NCBI GenBank assembly: GCA_937129385.1
Contig: CAKZNC010000105.1
Coordinates: 1-39,211 of the forward strand
Direction: 5' to 3'
Source: an uncultured Bacteroidota bacterium
GTDB lineage: Bacteria; Bacteroidota; Bacteroidia; Bacteroidales; GCA-2748055
DNA length: 39,211 bases
A program made the translations under genes and the position numbers. The notes under the pieces were generated by a model. That model was not told the DNA's origin, made no database searches, and saw only the letters and a list, made by a program, of their open reading frames with translations. How positions within the stretch are numbered: the first letter of the stretch is position 1; each line of letters begins with the position of its first letter. This document shows positions 2,786-10,056 of this stretch, piece by piece.

Positions 2786-3169
2786 ATGAAAATGAGATCT
2801 GAAAAACCCGCGAACTTAGGAGGTTTGTTTGCATTGTCCTTTGCCCTGGCAATGATATTGGGACTTCAATCATGTGAACAGTACGAGATCCTGCCTCCCC
2901 CACCACCAGAGGAAGTGACCTTTTCAGAGATCCAGGACATTTTTAACAATGGATGTGTTGGATGTCACGATGGTGTTACTGCAAATCCGGTACTTGAAGA
3001 GGGCGTAGCGTATGACAATCTGATGAACGGAGATTATATTGATACTGCAAACCCGGAGCAGAGTACACTATATGTAAAAATGAGTGATAGCAGTCATAGT
3101 CTTTACAGCTCCGGCGGCGAAAGAAACAAGGTCCTTAAATGGATCCAGGATGGAGCACCTAACAATTAA
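2786..3169 (+). CDS. Mono-heme c-type cytochrome lipoprotein
   Basis: This 127-residue protein is predicted to be an exported electron carrier tethered by lipid. The N-terminus has a hydrophobic signal followed by a lipobox, GLQSC, with the lipidated Cys near residue 30. A proline-rich linker (ILPPPPPEE) follows, then one heme-binding motif, CVGCH, in the setting FSEIQDIFNNGCVGCHDG. This setting resembles the planctomycete-type (PSCyt1) cytochrome c family. The ending, VLKWIQDGAPNN, is also typical of that family. It is the first gene of a five-gene run with short gaps. A second ATG two codons in is an equally plausible start. Its position next to an outer-membrane barrel gene suggests an outer-membrane location, which is inference. 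Confidence 0.88.
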   Translation: MKMRSEKPANLGGLFALSFALAMILGLQSCEQYEILPPPPPEEVTFSEIQDIFNNGCVGCHDGVTANPVLEEGVAYDNLMNGDYIDTANPEQSTLYVKMSDSSHSLYSSGGERNKVLKWIQDGAPNN

Positions 3170-3189
3170 CGAAAAAAATTTTACCTGCC

Positions 3190-4032
3190 ATGAATAAAAA
3201 ACTTTTCATAACCCTCGGACTGATTGTTGCAATCATATCTTCAAAACCTGCATTCTGCCAGGACGATGAAGACAAGCCCATCAGGCCTCCTTTTGAAACA
3301 ACACTTCTAATCGACAACCAGACAACCGTCAACCCATATAAGGGATCCATGACCCTGGAGATCCAGCACAGGTTTTCGCAGATCTCCTCCATCAGTGACC
3401 TGTTTGGCATCTATGGTACCGCAAATACAAGGATGGCCCTCTCATACGGGATCACTGACAAAGCGATGGTTGGATTTGGTACCACCCGCGGATATAAACT
3501 GCAGGACCTTTTCTGGAAATACAGCATCTTTACGCAGACCAGGTCGGGTAGTATGCCGGTTTCTCTGAGTTATGCTGGAAATGCCGTAATCGACGCGAGG
3601 AATTCCGAGGTATTCGGACCTGCGGAGGACTACACATTTATTCACAGGATGTCCTACATGAACCAGCTGATCGTCTCCAGGAAGATCGGCATGCTGTTCA
3701 GCGCACAACTTGCACCGACCTTCATCTGGATGAACGCTGTGGAAGAGGGATACAACAACCTGAACTTTTCACTGAATGCGGGCGTCAGGGCCATGGTTCT
3801 GGGATTTCATTCCATTATTCTCGAATACGAACAGCCTTTTACTCAGCCGGAAGGTGCAGACGTTTACCCCAACCTTGCCCTTGGTGTTGAAATCGGAACC
3901 AGTACACACTCATTCAGGGTGTTTGCCGCAAACTACAACGCCCTGGTGAAAAACTACAATGTTGTTTATAACCAGAACAATCCATTTGATATGGATTACC
4001 AGTTTGGTTTCAATATATCAATTAAGTTCTAA
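3190..4032 (+). CDS. DUF5777-family outer-membrane beta-barrel protein
   Basis: This 280-residue protein has a clear signal peptide (cleavage near AFC-Q, residue 23) and then many short amphipathic beta strands. It ends in a C-terminal phenylalanine (FGFNISIKF), as expected for an outer-membrane barrel. I recognise the pattern of the DUF5777 family from features such as the FETTLLIDNQTTVNP start and the MALSYGITDKAMVGFG strand pair. The family has no established function. It starts 20 bases after the cytochrome lipoprotein and ends 10 bases before the seven-heme cytochrome gene, so it almost certainly belongs to the same transcript. It could be a pore or scaffold that lets a cytochrome cross the outer membrane. 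That role is inference. Confidence 0.85.
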   Translation: MNKKLFITLGLIVAIISSKPAFCQDDEDKPIRPPFETTLLIDNQTTVNPYKGSMTLEIQHRFSQISSISDLFGIYGTANTRMALSYGITDKAMVGFGTTRGYKLQDLFWKYSIFTQTRSGSMPVSLSYAGNAVIDARNSEVFGPAEDYTFIHRMSYMNQLIVSRKIGMLFSAQLAPTFIWMNAVEEGYNNLNFSLNAGVRAMVLGFHSIILEYEQPFTQPEGADVYPNLALGVEIGTSTHSFRVFAANYNALVKNYNVVYNQNNPFDMDYQFGFNISIKF

Positions 4033-4042
4033 ATCGTAAACA

Positions 4043-5026
4043 ATGAAGAAGATCGCCTCAATAATACTTTCTCTTTTCCTGGCCTCTTCGATTTCCCTGG
4101 CAGCACAGTCCGACTCGCTGGAGAATGCTGCAGACCTGGAAAAATACCGGGAAGTCAATGATTTCGTTGATGAAAATGAATCCTGCTTTAAATGCCACGC
4201 CGAGACGAAATATGTGCTTGTAGATGAGTTTTTCGGAACTGAATTCGTCAATTCATTGTGTCCCGATAAAATGGTGACGCGGGACGAATACTACTCGATG
4301 GTGCATAAAAGCTTTGCATGTCTGGATTGTCATGCCTACGATTATGAAGAGTTCCCGCATCCGCTGTCAGCAAGACTGGAAGAGCCCTATCAGTGCATCG
4401 ATTGTCATGGATATGATGAAAATTATGCACATTTCCAGTTTGAGGACATCGAAATGGAATACATGGAAAGTGTTCATGCAGAACAGGTCGAAAATTTTTC
4501 ATGTTGGAAATGCCATGATCCACATTCATACCAGCTGACTGTCAGGGACGACGGCGCTACCATCAAGGAGGCAATTGCCTATAATAACGATATCTGCCTC
4601 TCCTGCCACTCTGATTTCAGCAGGTTTGAATTGCTGACCGACAGGGAGGAGATTGATATTCTCGATACCCATGACTGGTTGCCCAACCAGGCAGCTCACT
4701 TTGGCAGTGTCAGGTGTATTGAGTGCCATACATCATTATCCGACAGTACATTGGTTGCACACCATGTTCAGCCGAGCGAGCTGGCAGTGAAAAAATGCTC
4801 GGAATGCCATTCGAAAAATTCGATCCTCATGGCTTCACTGTATAAACACGAAGCCAAGGAAAGCAGGAGAAAATATGGTTTCATCAATGGTGTGATCCTG
4901 AATGAAGCCTATGTGATTGGCGCCAACAGGAATACCACGCTGAGTTTTATCGGGATCCTCCTCTTTTTACTCACGATGGGTGGTATCTCCATTCACATTG
5001 TTGCACGCATTATCTTTAAAAAGTAA
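4043..5026 (+). CDS. Seven-heme c-type cytochrome with C-terminal membrane anchor
   Basis: This 327-residue protein has an N-terminal signal peptide (about residues 1-21) and seven CxxCH heme motifs at C48, C93, C118, C154, C185, C225 and C252. A single C-terminal transmembrane helix spans about 298-320 and is followed by a basic end (IIFKK). The protein should sit in the periplasm, held to the inner membrane by the C-terminal helix. Many extra histidines (for example H130, H145, H161, H210, H219, H240, H241) could serve as distal heme ligands. The next gene is a cytochrome b whose ATG starts 4 bases after this stop. The pairing resembles Cbc-type quinol:cytochrome c oxidoreductases such as Geobacter CbcL, in which multiheme c and di-heme b parts are fused. 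That comparison is an analogy, not a proven homology. Confidence 0.92.
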   Translation: MKKIASIILSLFLASSISLAAQSDSLENAADLEKYREVNDFVDENESCFKCHAETKYVLVDEFFGTEFVNSLCPDKMVTRDEYYSMVHKSFACLDCHAYDYEEFPHPLSARLEEPYQCIDCHGYDENYAHFQFEDIEMEYMESVHAEQVENFSCWKCHDPHSYQLTVRDDGATIKEAIAYNNDICLSCHSDFSRFELLTDREEIDILDTHDWLPNQAAHFGSVRCIECHTSLSDSTLVAHHVQPSELAVKKCSECHSKNSILMASLYKHEAKESRRKYGFINGVILNEAYVIGANRNTTLSFIGILLFLLTMGGISIHIVARIIFKK

Positions 5027-5030
5027 TATC

Positions 5031-5666
5031 ATGGCAAAATTATCATATCACTATCCTCTGTCAATCAGGATATGGCATGGAATCAATGCGCTTTGTATCC
5101 TCCTGCTGATCGCAACCGGTATCAGTATGTACTATGTGGACCCCAACAGGACACTGATCGAATTCTCATGGGCTGTAAAAATTCACAATATCACCGGAGT
5201 GATCCTCAGCTTCAGCTACCTGATCTTTTTCATCTCCAACATCACCACGGGCAACAGAAAATATTACAAGATGCCCCTGAAAGGTATTGGAGAACGACTG
5301 CTCAAACAATCACAGTATTATGCTTTTGGCATGTTCAAGGGAGAAAAGAAACCATATCCGATCACGGAGCAAAGAAAATTTAACCCCCTTCAAAAACTGT
5401 TTTATGTGATCATCATGTATATTGGCGTTCCCCTTGTGATCATTTCAGGATGGGGACTGCTACTTCCGGAATCTGTCATTGGGGCTTTCATGGGAGTTAG
5501 TGGGATTCTGATCACCGACGTGCTGCACGTTGCAATGGGATTCTTTATCTCCCTTTTCCTTGTCATCCATATATATGTTAGTACGATCGGACATACACGC
5601 TCTGCCAATTTCAAGAGTATTGTCAATGGCTACGGATGGATCGAGGAATCGGAAAATGCAAAATGA
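5031..5666 (+). CDS. Di-heme-type cytochrome b (b561/HydC/FdnI-like) membrane subunit
   Basis: This 211-residue integral membrane protein has four predicted helices (about 12-34, 50-70, 122-145, 163-186). Histidines at positions suited to bind two b hemes are H16, H52, H166 and H180. Such subunits usually pass electrons between the quinone pool and a periplasmic partner. The start at 5031 is chosen because it follows the upstream stop by 4 bases and opens directly into the family pattern YHYPLSIRIWHGIN. An in-frame ATG at 4980 would lie inside the cytochrome gene. With the seven-heme protein it likely forms an inner-membrane quinol-cytochrome module. No molybdopterin, hydrogenase or nitrite reductase subunit is adjacent. 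Confidence 0.88.
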   Translation: MAKLSYHYPLSIRIWHGINALCILLLIATGISMYYVDPNRTLIEFSWAVKIHNITGVILSFSYLIFFISNITTGNRKYYKMPLKGIGERLLKQSQYYAFGMFKGEKKPYPITEQRKFNPLQKLFYVIIMYIGVPLVIISGWGLLLPESVIGAFMGVSGILITDVLHVAMGFFISLFLVIHIYVSTIGHTRSANFKSIVNGYGWIEESENAK

Positions 5667-5730
5667 TCATGGAAAAATCATTTTTGGTAAGCTTTTTGTA
5701 ATTAAATAAGTAACACATAAATTTTCAATC

Positions 5731-6147
5731 ATGAAAAAATTAATTAAAAATCTGACAGCGCTTGCAATAGTTGCAATCTTCTTCACAGCATTTTCAGCAA
5801 TGAACATGCCACAGGACCAACCTGAACCATGGCCGGTACCTGACAAATACAAGAACATGGAGAACCCGACAAAAGGTGATGCACAGGCAGTTAAAATGGG
5901 TGGAATGCTTTATAAAAGGCATTGTGCTTCCTGTCACGGCAGAACCGGACTTGGAGACGGACCAAAAGCCCGTGGTCTTGAAACATTCTCAGGTGACTTC
6001 TCAGGTGACTATTACCAGGACCAGACCGATGGTGAACATTTCTACAAAACCCTGGAAGGCCGCGGAGAGATGCCGGGCTATAAAGGCAAAATGTCAGAAG
6101 AAGACATTTGGTCGATTGTATCCTACATGCGTACATTTGACAAATAA
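5731..6147 (+). CDS. Small mono-heme cytochrome c (class I type)
   Basis: This 138-residue exported protein has a signal peptide (about residues 1-25), a linker, and a single cytochrome c domain. It contains one heme motif, CASCH, in the context YKRHCASCHGRTGLGDGPKA. A conserved methionine in GEMPGYKGKM probably gives the sixth iron ligand, and the domain ends in the usual helix EEDIWSIVSYMRTF. This is the form of a soluble periplasmic electron shuttle. It is the last gene of the redox operon, 64 bases after the cytochrome b gene, and is followed by a terminator. The wider gap leaves room for its own promoter, but I see no clear TAnnTTTG there. Confidence 0.92.
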   Translation: MKKLIKNLTALAIVAIFFTAFSAMNMPQDQPEPWPVPDKYKNMENPTKGDAQAVKMGGMLYKRHCASCHGRTGLGDGPKARGLETFSGDFSGDYYQDQTDGEHFYKTLEGRGEMPGYKGKMSEEDIWSIVSYMRTFDK

Positions 6148-6171
6148 AAATACGGATCCCCGGATCCTGGG

Positions 6172-6203
6172 AGCCGTCTCCATCTGGAGGCGGCTTTTTT
6201 TTT
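6172..6203 (+). terminator. Rho-independent terminator of the cytochrome operon
   Basis: The stem is GCCGTCTCC (6173-6181) against GGAGGCGGC (6186-6194) with one G-T wobble and a 4-nt loop, followed by nine T. It lies 25 bases after the last cytochrome stop. Confidence 0.93.
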
Positions 6204-6431: not shown

Positions 6432-7991
6432 ATGGATATAAACGGAAGAAATTTCAAAAAATTCCTTGAAAGGCAGGAAGTATTTGAGTCACAATACGAC
6501 TCAGAATCCAAGAAAAAACAGCACTCCAAAGGAAAGTTAACTGCCCGGGAAAGAATCGCAATTTTATTTGATGAGGATACCTTTGAAGAAGTTGACGCCT
6601 ATGTGACTTCGGCAAAATCCGATGGTAATTTCGGGAAAATAAGCGGTTCATACGGTGATGGTGTCATCATTGGCCACGGCCAGGTACATGGCAGGCTGGT
6701 ATTTGCCTATGCCCAGGATTTTAACATCATGGGCGGATCACTCGGAACCATTCATGCTGCCAAGATCATGAAGTTACAGGACATGGCACTGAAAATGGGA
6801 GCACCCATCATTGGGTTGATCGATTCAGGAGGTGCAAGAATCCAGGAGGGTGTAGCAAGTCTGGCCGGATATGCCGGAATCTTTTACAGGAATGTACAGG
6901 CATCTGGTGTCATTCCCCAGGTCTCCGTGATCCTGGGTCCGGCAGCAGGAGGGGCAGTCTACTCTCCATCCATCACTGATTTTGTATTCATGACCAACAA
7001 GACCAGTTACATGTTTGTAACCGGTCCCAACGTGGTCAAGGAGGTCCTCAACGAGGATGTTTCGTTTGATGATCTCGGTGGTGCAGAGGTACATGCCAAG
7101 AAAAGCGGCGTTGCCCAGATGATCTTTGAAGATGAGGAGAATACCCTGATGGGGGTCAGGAGACTGATTTCCTTCCTTCCATCCAACAATCTTGAGAATT
7201 GCCCGGAAACAGAACTTGGTGAAGATGACACCGCCGACGTGGAGGAAAAACTGAGGGACATTGTGCCAGACGATGCCAATAAACCCTACGATGTTAAGGA
7301 TGTGATCAACCTGTTGGTTGACAAACGCTCTTTCTACGAGATCTCAGAAAGATTTGCACAGAATATCGTCGTGGGATTCGGCAGGCTTGACGGAAAGGTA
7401 ATCGGAATCATTGCCAACCAGCCAAAGGTTCTGGCCGGCACACTCGACATTGATAGTTCAAATAAGGGAGCTCGCTTTATCAGGTTTTGTGATTCATTCA
7501 ATATTCCACTTCTTACCCTTGAGGATGTGCCCGGATTTCTCCCGGGAATTGATCAGGAACACAGCGGCATTATCCGTCATGGCGCAAAATTATTGTACGC
7601 TTATGCCGACGCCACCGTGCCAAGGATAACCGTAATCCTCAGGAAGTCATATGGAGGTGCCTATTGCGTAATGAACAGTAAAAACCTTGGGGGAGATTTT
7701 AATTTTGCCTGGCCAACGGCAGAAATTGCAGTAATGGGGCCAGAGGGAGCAGTCGCAATTCTTTACAGGAAGGAACTGGCAGCTTCAGATGATCCGGCAA
7801 CACTTAAAAAAGAACTGGCTGTCAAGTACAGGGATGAGATCGCAAATCCTTATGTTGCAGATGAAAAAGGCTTCATAGATGAAGTGATCGATCCGGCCAT
7901 TACAAGGAAAAAGCTGAAATCCGCATTCCTTGCCCTTGAGAACAAATACATCACCAACCCAACGCGTAAACACGGTAATATACCTCTGTAA
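6432..7991 (+). CDS. pccB: Acyl-CoA (propionyl-CoA) carboxylase, carboxyltransferase subunit
   Basis: This 519-residue protein is a carboxyltransferase of the AccD/PccB crotonase-fold family, which moves CO2 from carboxybiotin to an acyl-CoA. Visible marks are the KLTARERIAILFD opening, the GGSLGTIHAAKI segment, the N-half oxyanion region DSGGARIQEGV, the GPAAGGAVYSP loop and the C-half KSYGGAYCVM region. The same family includes methylmalonyl-CoA decarboxylase alpha subunits. Here the next gene is an ATP-grasp biotin carboxylase and no sodium-pump beta subunit is present, so an ATP-dependent carboxylase is more likely. Propionyl-CoA is the expected substrate in this phylum, but substrate choice cannot be read directly. 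The gap to the next gene is 9 bases. Confidence 0.9.
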   Translation: MDINGRNFKKFLERQEVFESQYDSESKKKQHSKGKLTARERIAILFDEDTFEEVDAYVTSAKSDGNFGKISGSYGDGVIIGHGQVHGRLVFAYAQDFNIMGGSLGTIHAAKIMKLQDMALKMGAPIIGLIDSGGARIQEGVASLAGYAGIFYRNVQASGVIPQVSVILGPAAGGAVYSPSITDFVFMTNKTSYMFVTGPNVVKEVLNEDVSFDDLGGAEVHAKKSGVAQMIFEDEENTLMGVRRLISFLPSNNLENCPETELGEDDTADVEEKLRDIVPDDANKPYDVKDVINLLVDKRSFYEISERFAQNIVVGFGRLDGKVIGIIANQPKVLAGTLDIDSSNKGARFIRFCDSFNIPLLTLEDVPGFLPGIDQEHSGIIRHGAKLLYAYADATVPRITVILRKSYGGAYCVMNSKNLGGDFNFAWPTAEIAVMGPEGAVAILYRKELAASDDPATLKKELAVKYRDEIANPYVADEKGFIDEVIDPAITRKKLKSAFLALENKYITNPTRKHGNIPL

Positions 7992-8000
7992 ACGTCAGTT

Positions 8001-9500
8001 ATGAAAATCAAAAGCATACTTATCGCCAACCGGGGTGAAATTGCTATTCGTATTATGCGGACAGCTAAGCAGATGGGCATAGAAACCTATGCGATCAAAA
8101 CCGCAAAGGAGCCAACTGCCTGGTACCTCGATGAAGCGGATCACATCATCGATTTTACTGAGTGTCTCAGTGATACTCCTGAATTCCTCGATATTGAGAG
8201 AATCATTTATACCGTCAAAGATAATAAGATCGATGCCGTCCACCCGGGATACGGCTTCCTTGCAGAAAATCCGGTTTTCGCCCGCAGATGTGAAGAAGAA
8301 AAGATCAATTTCATAGGTCCTTCCTCAGAGGTCATCTACAACATGGGGAATAAAACCGTGGCCAAGGACCTGGCACGTAAATACAATGTTCCACTGCTGA
8401 GGGGAAGTAAAGGAACCTTGCTCAATGCCGACTATGCCCGGAGGATGGCCAATATCATCGGTTACCCGGTGATTCTGAAAGCTGCAGCCGGCGGAGGTGG
8501 AAGAGGTATGCGTGTTGCAACAAATGAAGCAGAGGTTGAACGAATGTACCATCTTGCCTCCAAAGAATCTGCCAAAGCATTCAATGACCCCTCCATGTTC
8601 ATTGAAAAATATGTTGCAGAACCCAGGCACATCGAGTTCCAGATCCTGGCAGACAAACATGGAAATACCATTCATCTCGGAGAACGTGAATGCTCAATCC
8701 AGCGAAAGCATCAGAAACTGCTGGAAGAATCCCCCTCCCCTGCACTCGATCCGGAACTCAGAAAAAAAATGGGCGAGGCAGCCATAAACATTGCCAAAGC
8801 GGTGGGTTACTATTCTGCCGGTACTGTTGAATTCCTGCTGGATGCCGACAAAAATTTCTACTTTATGGAGATGAATACCAGGATACAGGTAGAGCATCCT
8901 GTAACTGAAATGGTAACCGGCATCGACCTGATTGAGCAAATGATCAGAATCGCACAGGGAGAAAAACTCAGGATCAGCCAGGAAGAGGTGAGGCTCGAAG
9001 GACACGCTATAGAATTCCGTATAAATGCTGAAGATGTACAATCCGGATTTTCGCCCAGCCTGGGTACCATTGAAAAGATCTCATGGCCCGAAGGGGAAAA
9101 CATCAGGGTAGATACAGGTGTCAGGGACGGGTCGGTGATCACACCCTACTTTGATTCAATGATCGCGAAATTGATCGTTTATGGTGAATCAAGGGACAAA
9201 GTGCTGCAGGATTCCACCAATGCCATCAGGAAATCATGGATCAAGGGGACAAAGACAACCCTTTCATTTTGCCGCGCCGTCCTGCAGAACGGGAATTTCA
9301 GGAAGGGAAACTTCAACACCTCTTTTTTGAGCAGTGAACTGAAGATACATTACCACTCTGAACCCGATGAAGAGATGCTGGCAGCTTTCTTTGCCGTGTA
9401 TGATTATGCACGTGACCTTGAAGAAGCTGAAGGTAAAAAACTGAATGTCGACAAGGGAAAGAACATCACTCCCTGGCTGCTCAATAAACGATTACGTTAA
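8001..9500 (+). CDS. accC: Biotin carboxylase subunit of acyl-CoA carboxylase
   Basis: This 499-residue ATP-grasp enzyme carboxylates biotin on the carrier protein using ATP and bicarbonate. It shows the full set of family motifs: ILIANRGEIAIRI at the start, HPGYGFLAEN at 81-90, the glycine-rich ATP loop AAAGGGGRGMR at 161-171, ERECSIQRKHQK at 228-239 and EMNTRIQVEHP at 290-300. Its length fits a stand-alone biotin carboxylase, not the fused ~670-residue PccA, and the biotin carrier is a separate gene 10 bases downstream. The N-terminal region after residue 30 departs from the usual AVYSEAD pattern (AIKTAKEPTAWYLDEAD), which is a minor oddity. Confidence 0.93.
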   Translation: MKIKSILIANRGEIAIRIMRTAKQMGIETYAIKTAKEPTAWYLDEADHIIDFTECLSDTPEFLDIERIIYTVKDNKIDAVHPGYGFLAENPVFARRCEEEKINFIGPSSEVIYNMGNKTVAKDLARKYNVPLLRGSKGTLLNADYARRMANIIGYPVILKAAAGGGGRGMRVATNEAEVERMYHLASKESAKAFNDPSMFIEKYVAEPRHIEFQILADKHGNTIHLGERECSIQRKHQKLLEESPSPALDPELRKKMGEAAINIAKAVGYYSAGTVEFLLDADKNFYFMEMNTRIQVEHPVTEMVTGIDLIEQMIRIAQGEKLRISQEEVRLEGHAIEFRINAEDVQSGFSPSLGTIEKISWPEGENIRVDTGVRDGSVITPYFDSMIAKLIVYGESRDKVLQDSTNAIRKSWIKGTKTTLSFCRAVLQNGNFRKGNFNTSFLSSELKIHYHSEPDEEMLAAFFAVYDYARDLEEAEGKKLNVDKGKNITPWLLNKRLR

Positions 9501-9510
9501 AAGAAAAGTC

Positions 9511-10056
9511 ATGGCAGAAAAAAATAAAGGCGCAAAAACAACAAAAAAGAGTCAGCTGATCGCCCTCAGCGCTGCAAATAAACAGTATTCCTTTACAAAT
9601 CCCCTTGAGCGCGTTGTCAAATACAAGGGTGAAAATGTAAAGATCAAACTCTACGAGGATCCAAACGGCTTCTCATATGTGCTTTGGAAAAATAAGAAAT
9701 ACCCACTGGAGATCATTGAAAAGAGCCAGAACAAATACACGGTGATGCTCAACGGCGTATGGCATTCATTCACCGTGGAAACGCCTTTTTCACTGAAACG
9801 GAAAAAATTTCTTGAATCACAGGCCGGCACTTCATCGTCGGTTACCATCGATGCACCAATGCCGGGGAAGATCGTCGAAGTACTGATAGAAGAGGGTGCC
9901 GAGGTCAAATCAGGAGAATCCCTGTTGATCCTCGAGGCCATGAAAATGCAGAATGAGATCTCCAGCCACGTCGATGGCGTAGTGAAAAAGATCGCCATTC
10001 GTCAGAATGATTCCGTAATGAAAGATGACCTGCTCATCGAGATTGAAAAAAGTTGA
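9511..10056 (+). CDS. Biotin carboxyl carrier protein of acyl-CoA carboxylase
   Basis: This 181-residue protein carries the biotin that shuttles CO2 between the two preceding enzymes. The C-terminal biotinyl domain (about 107-181) has the attachment motif EAMKMQNE, with the biotinylated lysine at residue 145. The first 100 residues form a separate beta-rich domain that may correspond to the BT (holoenzyme-assembly) domain of propionyl-CoA carboxylase alpha subunits. That match is inferred from position and strand pattern. The start at 9511 is chosen because it follows the accC stop by 10 bases. A longer in-frame start at 9445 would overlap accC. The gene faces thpR with a 25-base gap and no clear terminator. 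Confidence 0.92.
   Translation: MAEKNKGAKTTKKSQLIALSAANKQYSFTNPLERVVKYKGENVKIKLYEDPNGFSYVLWKNKKYPLEIIEKSQNKYTVMLNGVWHSFTVETPFSLKRKKFLESQAGTSSSVTIDAPMPGKIVEVLIEEGAEVKSGESLLILEAMKMQNEISSHVDGVVKKIAIRQNDSVMKDDLLIEIEKS

Follow-up and report, generated by a model that had tools for sequence, protein, structure and literature searches.

A conserved five-gene cytochrome cassette of Bacteroidota with an upstream CRP/FNR-type palindrome, and its candidate outer-membrane partners

The stretch of DNA analyzed here (the window) is a single 39,211-base contig of an uncultured Bacteroidota bacterium, whose genome is given as 99.7% complete, and carries a cassette of five genes for putative electron carriers. 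The cassette spans positions 2786–6147, and its placement by a first-pass annotation, with all five genes in the same (forward) direction, was confirmed and is supported by Pfam and motif matches. The first gene (mono, 2786–3169) encodes a lipid-anchored mono-heme cytochrome c with an LQSC lipobox and one CXXCH motif, and the second a DUF5777 outer-membrane beta barrel with 12 predicted strands (3190–4032; PF19089, E = 3.2e-63). These are followed by a gene for a seven-heme c-type cytochrome with seven CXXCH motifs and a single transmembrane stretch as C-terminal inner-membrane anchor (hepta, 4043–5026), one for a cytochrome b561/PhsC-like, quinol-side subunit starting with an ATG at 5031 (cytb, 5031–5666; PF01292, E = 3.4e-25), and one for a soluble mono-heme cytochrome c with a signal peptide (solc, 5731–6147; PF13442, E = 1.2e-12). 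The intergenic gaps are, in gene order, 20, 10, 4, and 64 bases. A CRP/FNR-family palindrome of the form TGAYN4RTCA (CTGACCCGGATCAG, 2679–2692, no strand assigned) lies upstream, and an intrinsic terminator-like stem of 13 pairs followed by a T-run (6169–6198, forward strand) closes the cassette. Of the two boundaries proposed in the first-pass annotation, this terminator was borne out, but the promoter remains doubtful: the sole Bacteroidota-type promoter match upstream of the cassette (2733–2762) belongs to a motif found at chance level in the window (two occurrences, 1.73 expected). Searches of the window for RNA families and tRNAs gave none. As had also been stated, the cluster in the window contains no reductase catalytic subunit.

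Alignments with relatives showed that the presumed cofactor ligands of the two inner-membrane proteins are strictly conserved. In 22 aligned heptaheme proteins, the seven CXXCH motifs are invariant, as are seven other histidines located before the anchor (88, 106, 145, 161, 210, 219, and 240) and His318 within the membrane anchor. Because the seven additional pre-anchor histidines match the seven CXXCH motifs, the pattern fits seven bis-His hemes, and thus an electron carrier rather than an enzyme. In cytb, His 16, 52, 166, and 180 are invariant among 19 sequences, as expected for two b hemes, so that the protein is probably diheme. Its closest NCBIfam family is PRK15006, the thiosulfate reductase cytochrome b (E = 7e-45, under the family cut-off). 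In searches of solved structures, the cytb profile gave nothing useful and the hepta profile only three weak matches.

Judged from sequence, hepta and cytb resemble a CbcL/CbcBA-type quinol:multiheme oxidoreductase in split form; this type is known from Geobacter, and MtrH and MtoC also belong to it. Two features are shared with these systems, namely a diheme b-type membrane subunit of the HydC/FdnI/b561 kind, with a PF01292 match and four invariant histidines, and an abutting multiheme c-type partner with seven CXXCH motifs, held at the inner membrane by a C-terminal hydrophobic stretch. The pair differs in being encoded by two genes, in having seven c hemes, and in being set together with a lipoprotein cytochrome and a DUF5777 barrel; CbcA of CbcBA also carries seven hemes. 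Relatives of the cassette encode a protein of approximately 934 residues that combines 19 CXXCH motifs with a C-terminal cytochrome b part, found whole or in pieces at 11 of 94 loci. The hepta profile matched the N-terminal part of this fusion (probability 98.7, E = 3e-16) and the cytb profile its C-terminal part (probability 88.1, E = 3e-6), and it is through this CbcL-like fusion of relatives that a possible homology to CbcL was gauged. The labels CbcL-like and ImcH-like, as used here for proteins of relatives, denote an architecture, as given in the available text of PMC6295460, and not a direct sequence comparison; there, CbcL, MtrH, and MtoC are described as fusions of a multiheme and a cytochrome b part with 3 to 23 heme motifs. 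A 2026 paper counts ImcH, CbcL, CbcBA, and CymA with the best markers for putative extracellular electron transfer (PMC12977616).

The heptaheme protein is present in 28 of 61 genomes searched, the source genome included. Furthermore, at least 391 heptaheme relatives were confirmed when named genome contigs were scanned. The best 80 of these, nearly all from Bacteroidota metagenome-assembled genomes (MAGs), were kept; together with the window and 13 loci from whole genomes, they form a neighborhood set of 94 loci. Removal of three loci with identical hepta left 91, further loci repeating the same contigs having been excluded. Within a run, defined as the same-strand genes around the heptaheme gene with gaps below 400 bases (contig ends cut some loci), cytb was found in 87 of the 91 loci, DUF5777 in 83, mono in 76, and solc in 60. 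The same gene order had been suggested as something to be sought in other Bacteroidota genomes, and the order mono–DUF5777–(solc)–hepta–cytb was indeed uninterrupted in 73 of the 91 loci, with median gaps of 29 bases between mono and DUF5777, 17 between DUF5777 and hepta, and 1 between hepta and cytb (86 pairs). The position of solc varies: the gene may follow cytb or an NrfD block, or lie between DUF5777 and hepta. This gene order is not due to chance, and the proposal of a conserved gene set placing electron carriers from the inner to the outer membrane is supported. The cassette is also carried by a named strain, Marinifilum caeruleilacunae JC070 (locus L138), the only non-MAG title among the best 80 relatives. 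Some relatives have extended versions, with a DsrO-like Fe-S protein in 28 of the 91 runs and NrfD in 26; in this they are similar to DsrMKJOP and Qrc, unlike the window, which contains neither subunit. An unannotated family of approximately 297 residues (e.g., L115:13871-14764), found at 25 loci in both the 94-locus set and its 91 runs, has a C-terminal transmembrane stretch and directly follows NrfD in 23 of the 25 runs; the members tested had no Pfam or NCBIfam match.

The remaining two proteins, mono and DUF5777, would be located at the outer membrane. The structural model of DUF5777 (predicted local distance difference test score, pLDDT, of 85) is a 12-strand barrel, with KdgM (Z = 18.2, root-mean-square deviation (rmsd) 2.1, 166 residues aligned), FapF, and NanC as its nearest solved folds; a solved-structure search with the sequence profile gave nothing useful. 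MtrB and PioB are not among the fold matches listed, which by itself proves nothing. For mono, the Pfam cytochrome c match is below the cut-off (E = 0.026). The best fold match of its model (pLDDT 92) is to chain A of hydrazine synthase, in the C-terminal part of that chain (85 residues aligned, 28% identity, Z = 9.9, rmsd 1.5). This match comes from VIA, as Foldseek alone gave no E below 0.001, and for helical models the tool warns that Z values below approximately 13 may be frequent. The other fold matches are mostly cytochromes c, with Z of at most 3.6. With its CXXCH heme c motif and a cytochrome c fold match, mono is classed as a cytochrome c. In 8 of 82 proteins of the mono cluster, the motif is CX4CH instead of CXXCH (L050, L056, L099, L107, L118, L134, L139, and L141).

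The first-pass annotation had proposed a possible envelope-spanning electron conduit that includes the DUF5777 barrel. With the barrel itself as the conduit, this would correspond to an MtrCAB-like arrangement, in which DUF5777 is a sheath and a cytochrome is threaded through it across the outer membrane. Common to the cassette and MtrCAB or other porin–cytochrome conduits are a barrel gene adjoining cytochrome genes and an inner-membrane quinol partner, and the neighborhood of barrel and lipoprotein cytochrome genes in 76 of 91 loci, seen also outside this system, speaks for such an arrangement. However, a KdgM-like barrel of 12 predicted strands should leave too little room for an MtrAB-type multiheme wire, MtrB being far larger; the only lipoprotein cytochrome of the cassette is mono-heme, and an 11-heme-motif lipoprotein is encoded on a different contig (C170). 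In addition, DUF5777 was found in 134 of 149 sampled Bacteroidia genomes, one of them the source genome, mostly without multiheme neighbors, and none of 14 control genomes had it. A mono-type gene lies within 1.5 kb of DUF5777 in 26 of 29 loci taken from the Bacteroidia DUF5777 search; in 12 larger DUF5777 stretches, it is present in all 12 and a YceI-size gene adjoins in 7 (YceI identity was confirmed by Pfam in four proteins), while proteins with three or more CXXCH motifs occur in none. An MtrB-like sheath was rejected in view of the strand number together with this spread, and we consider a threaded conduit extremely improbable; the proposal of the barrel as conduit is not upheld, whereas the statement that the gene set is not built from MtrCAB families holds. 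Searches of an available library of papers found none naming DUF5777 and none on a 12-stranded conduit. The source genome itself contains a paralogous mono–DUF5777–YceI module without multiheme partners on contig C229 (locus L001, approximately 918–2750), and similar modules recur across Bacteroidia.

Occurrence of mono–DUF5777 without hepta–cytb also bears on a reading in which the chain is periplasmic only, with hepta, cytb, and solc feeding an ordinary enzyme such as a heme-copper oxidase and mono–DUF5777 being an unrelated envelope module that shares the operon. Candidate acceptors for such a chain are present: three genomes of the genus have two heme-copper oxidase genes apiece, the source genome among those having two, and the source genome also encodes an NrfHA-like pair (locus L143), named by size and heme count only. 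Nevertheless, mono–DUF5777 stays with hepta–cytb across divergent loci, and the operator type described below ties the cassette to multiheme lipoproteins. We consider this reading rather unlikely.

The inverted repeat upstream of the cassette emerged from an alignment of upstream regions within the genus. Of the loci with mono and enough upstream sequence (73 of 91 for TGAYN4RTCA and 74 for the looser TGAN6TCA), 58 of 73, among them the window, have TGAYN4RTCA in the 350 bases before mono, compared with 41 of 646 other genes. In this comparison, the pattern was refined on the loci where it was counted, leaving the mono count not independent, and the control genes include genes inside operons with coding sequence upstream. 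The looser pattern precedes mono in 59 of 74 loci (shuffled mean 9.3, largest 16). Within the same distance, TGAYN4RTCA precedes the gene for a hexaheme lipoprotein found in relatives in 32 of 46 cases and the gene of the neighboring regulator in 50 of 64, with some intergenic regions shared between these counts; it precedes an ImcH-like gene in 3 of 15, an acyl-CoA dehydrogenase gene in 3 of 24, and a CcsB-type gene in 2 of 28. The regulators adjoining these genes are CRP/FNR proteins, and those of relatives have cysteine at three columns in 70, 61, and 63 of 73, which would fit FNR-type oxygen sensing. At two loci (L065 and L069), two different CRP/FNR regulators are encoded: one divergent from mono, with a CxxC-type N terminus, and a second beside an 11-heme gene, with a CTxS...C.C N terminus. 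In the source genome, CTGAYNNNGRTCAG occurs at 24 places, 21 of which lie inside open reading frames, and the three others belong to the cassette, contig C80, and contig C170. The second such site of the window, at 7146, is inside an apparent carboxylase gene. The abundance of the operator in this genome (31 matches on both strands, versus 6 for the reversed pattern) was rejected as evidence of a regulon, given the 21 of 24 places in open reading frames.

On contig C170 of the source genome (G000), the site lies between the gene for a CRP/FNR regulator, 65% identical to a relative's regulator, and that for an 11-heme-motif lipoprotein (ten CXXCH motifs and one CX3CH), which is followed by the gene for a tandem-rhodanese lipoprotein. 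This trio is also present in genomes G001, G003, and G008. In 17 loci with regulator and 11-heme genes, TGAYN4RTCA is located between them in 14 and just inside the called start in 3; G001 has its site just inside the called start and none strictly between the two genes. A rhodanese gene adjoins the 11-heme gene at 14 of 20 loci; of the other loci, several are cut. In three loci (L065, L069, and L086), the cassette, rhodanese, 11-heme, regulator, and hexaheme genes are neighbors, and in L044 the cassette, rhodanese, and 11-heme genes are present before the contig ends. Strong 11-heme matches were found in 18 of 28 heptaheme-positive versus 0 of 33 heptaheme-negative genomes, a co-occurrence whose Fisher value ignores kinship and which outside the family amounts to 2 of 7 versus 0 of 26 (p = 0.04). 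Located beside a matching operator, the 11-heme and rhodanese lipoproteins may be the outer partners of the cassette in this genome.

A comparable combination is found in the ext cluster of Geobacter, extHIJKL(MNOPQS), which according to the available text of two papers encodes a rhodanese lipoprotein (ExtH), the porin-like ExtI, 10- and 12-heme cytochromes, a 23-kDa cytochrome b, and a lipoprotein cytochrome; ExtI is given 12 or 21 strands by two predictors, and its loss impairs selenite and tellurite reduction (PMC6148476, PMC5877670). A rhodanese lipoprotein, a 10–12-heme cytochrome, a barrel, and a cytochrome b are likewise present here, but only when the window and contig C170 are combined. 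Unlike the ext cluster, the parts in the source genome are on two contigs rather than in one contiguous cluster, the five-gene cassette includes no Rieske gene, and no close sequence homology was found (the nearest match, to ExtM, scores 24.8 bits against a cut-off of 800).

The rhodanese domains further raise the possibility of sulfur respiration at the outer membrane, in which the 11-heme and tandem-rhodanese lipoproteins would reduce thiosulfate, polysulfide, or sulfur at the surface. Both rhodanese domains retain the CY[TS]GQ cysteine loop in all six aligned tandem-rhodanese proteins, and this proposal is also favored by the adjacency of the rhodanese and 11-heme genes, by the closeness of cytb to the thiosulfate reductase b subunit, and by a weak match of the 11-heme protein to PDB 1sp3 (E = 3e-5), an octaheme tetrathionate reductase. 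On the other hand, 10 of 28 cassette-bearing genomes, some of them incomplete, are without a strong 11-heme match, and the rhodanese ExtH belongs to a cluster tied in the available text to selenite and tellurite, with a role for sulfur not proven (PMC6148476, PMC5877670). We regard sulfur as the acceptor as rather unlikely.

In relatives, a second candidate for the outer end of the chain is a hexaheme lipoprotein, with a lipobox followed by a collagen-like stretch and six invariant heme motifs, the last being CXXCH or CX4CH (20 aligned proteins of the 49 in its cluster, which also formed the profile). The profile matched OcwA (PDB 6I5B, E = 1.1e-16), described in the available text of PMC6703420 as a cell-surface terminal reductase of Thermincola potens, and NrfA (6v0a, E = 8.7e-12), which places the protein with OcwA and NrfA, from which it differs in its lipid anchor, collagen-like stalk, and six heme motifs. 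The first-pass annotation had held that a conserved terminal reductase next to the cassette would speak against a conduit. In part, such a gene is there: 48 of 94 loci have the hexaheme lipoprotein gene in the flanks that were fetched; in the same run, upstream of mono, it is encoded in 4 of 91, and no close homologue was found in the source genome, the one weak match there being to an NrfA-like protein. Of the 94 loci, 28 have a flanking gene for cytochrome c assembly of the CcsB type (one member tested).

The flanks also point to where the electrons might come from. FadE-type acyl-CoA dehydrogenase genes flank 28 of 94 loci, EtfA 22, EtfB 19, and HdrD-like genes 25 (one member of each annotated), and 24 of the 28 FadE-bearing loci have EtfA, EtfB, or HdrD-like genes; in 19 of 91 loci, such genes are part of the cassette's own run. 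The FadE trait is clustered on the tree yet needs five changes. These associations point to acyl-CoA oxidation as the quinol source in the FadE-bearing lineages. They also bear on electron uptake, in which an external donor would feed the chain and the quinone pool would receive the electrons, as might be supposed from the occurrence of CbcL, MtrH, and MtoC homologues in metal reducers and metal oxidizers alike (available text of PMC6295460). By family, the flanking genes encode quinol-producing donors, which argues against this direction; in G000, G001, and G003, no close FadE of that type was found, their acyl-CoA dehydrogenases being distant (best identity 33–34%). Uptake is, in our estimate, very improbable. 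In the window, apparent acyl-CoA carboxylase genes follow the cassette (6432–10056), hinting at a link to propionyl-CoA metabolism, and a 519-residue gene of this region recurs in the flanks of L062, L064, L065, L069, and L086 and near the hexaheme gene in L288.

Taken together, the cassette is somewhat better than evenly likely to encode most of a quinol-driven, probably anaerobic chain that feeds outer-membrane multiheme lipoproteins sharing a CRP/FNR-type operator with it. In this chain, cytb would take electrons from menaquinol via its two b hemes and hand them to hepta, with cytb and the inner-membrane-anchored bis-His hepta acting as a split CbcL in the manner of CbcBA. From there, solc could ferry electrons over the periplasm to the outer membrane, where lipid-anchored mono and the narrow DUF5777 barrel would form a docking or pore module. 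Terminal transfer would be carried out by multiheme lipoproteins encoded elsewhere under the common operator—in the source genome the 11-heme-motif and tandem-rhodanese lipoproteins of contig C170, and in relatives also the hexaheme OcwA/NrfA-like lipoprotein. A more specific form of surface respiration would need no wire through a barrel: from a split CbcBA-like quinol oxidase, electrons would be relayed beyond the outer membrane by lipoprotein cytochromes exported to the surface, with the narrow DUF5777 barrel aiding this relay, and would end at an 11-heme/rhodanese or a hexaheme OcwA-like terminal lipoprotein, all within one CRP/FNR-type regulon. This version we hold to be rather unlikely.

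Several observations weigh against the quinol-driven chain to outer-membrane lipoproteins. Besides the kinship behind the 11-heme co-occurrence, the position of the site in G001, and the way in which the operator was counted, the genes that make relatives look electroactive (hexaheme, ImcH-like, and 19-heme fusion) are those not found in the source genome: the hexaheme match there is the weak one noted above, and no strong match to an ImcH-like protein or the 19-heme fusion was obtained in G000, G001, or G003. The low operator count before ImcH-like genes points the same way, as do the NrfHA-like pair and the two heme-copper oxidase genes of the source genome. In Bacteroidia, DUF5777 and mono commonly form a module that has no multiheme proteins with it, and the 12 strands of the modeled barrel leave no heme path through the outer membrane. 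Finally, the regulator on contig C170 has cysteine at only the first of the three columns, with others at 17, 19, and 47; our confidence in the proposed chain was lowered slightly because this regulator keeps the FNR-type cysteines only in part. Joint, anoxic control of the window's cassette is what we infer from the operator and the regulators of relatives.

Two further loci of the source genome encode multiheme or related cytochromes. At L204:8302-9816, a NapC/NirT cytochrome domain is fused to an FGE-sulfatase domain, and the gene adjoins one for a GFO/IDH/MocA oxidoreductase with a Tat-like signal at its start. At L205:9126-11916, a protein with nine CXXCH motifs adjoins what appears by eye to be a flavin-dependent GMC-type dehydrogenase.

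Anoxic lakes, sediments, and digesters commonly harbor Bacteroidota. Those of digesters have been reported, in the available text of PMC7382037, to express multiheme cytochromes. Literature searches found no described electron conduit for this phylum, and the accessible parts of PMC7399161 and PMC13374861 hold nothing on this gene set. A seven-gene cluster of an anode-enriched Bacteroidetes MAG, comprising six multiheme proteins and a predicted barrel, has been considered in the available text of PMC8258643 to represent likely uncharacterized electron-transfer genes; by description, not by sequence, it is similar to the present system in combining multiheme cytochromes with one predicted barrel in a Bacteroidetes genome, and it differs from the cassette in its six multiheme genes, the families of which are not given there. 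With the conserved gene set, its operator, and the likely outer partners now laid out, and with a named strain carrying the cassette, the proposal is directly testable. If true, it would add another way of moving electrons past the outer membrane and would provide a marker set for metagenomes.

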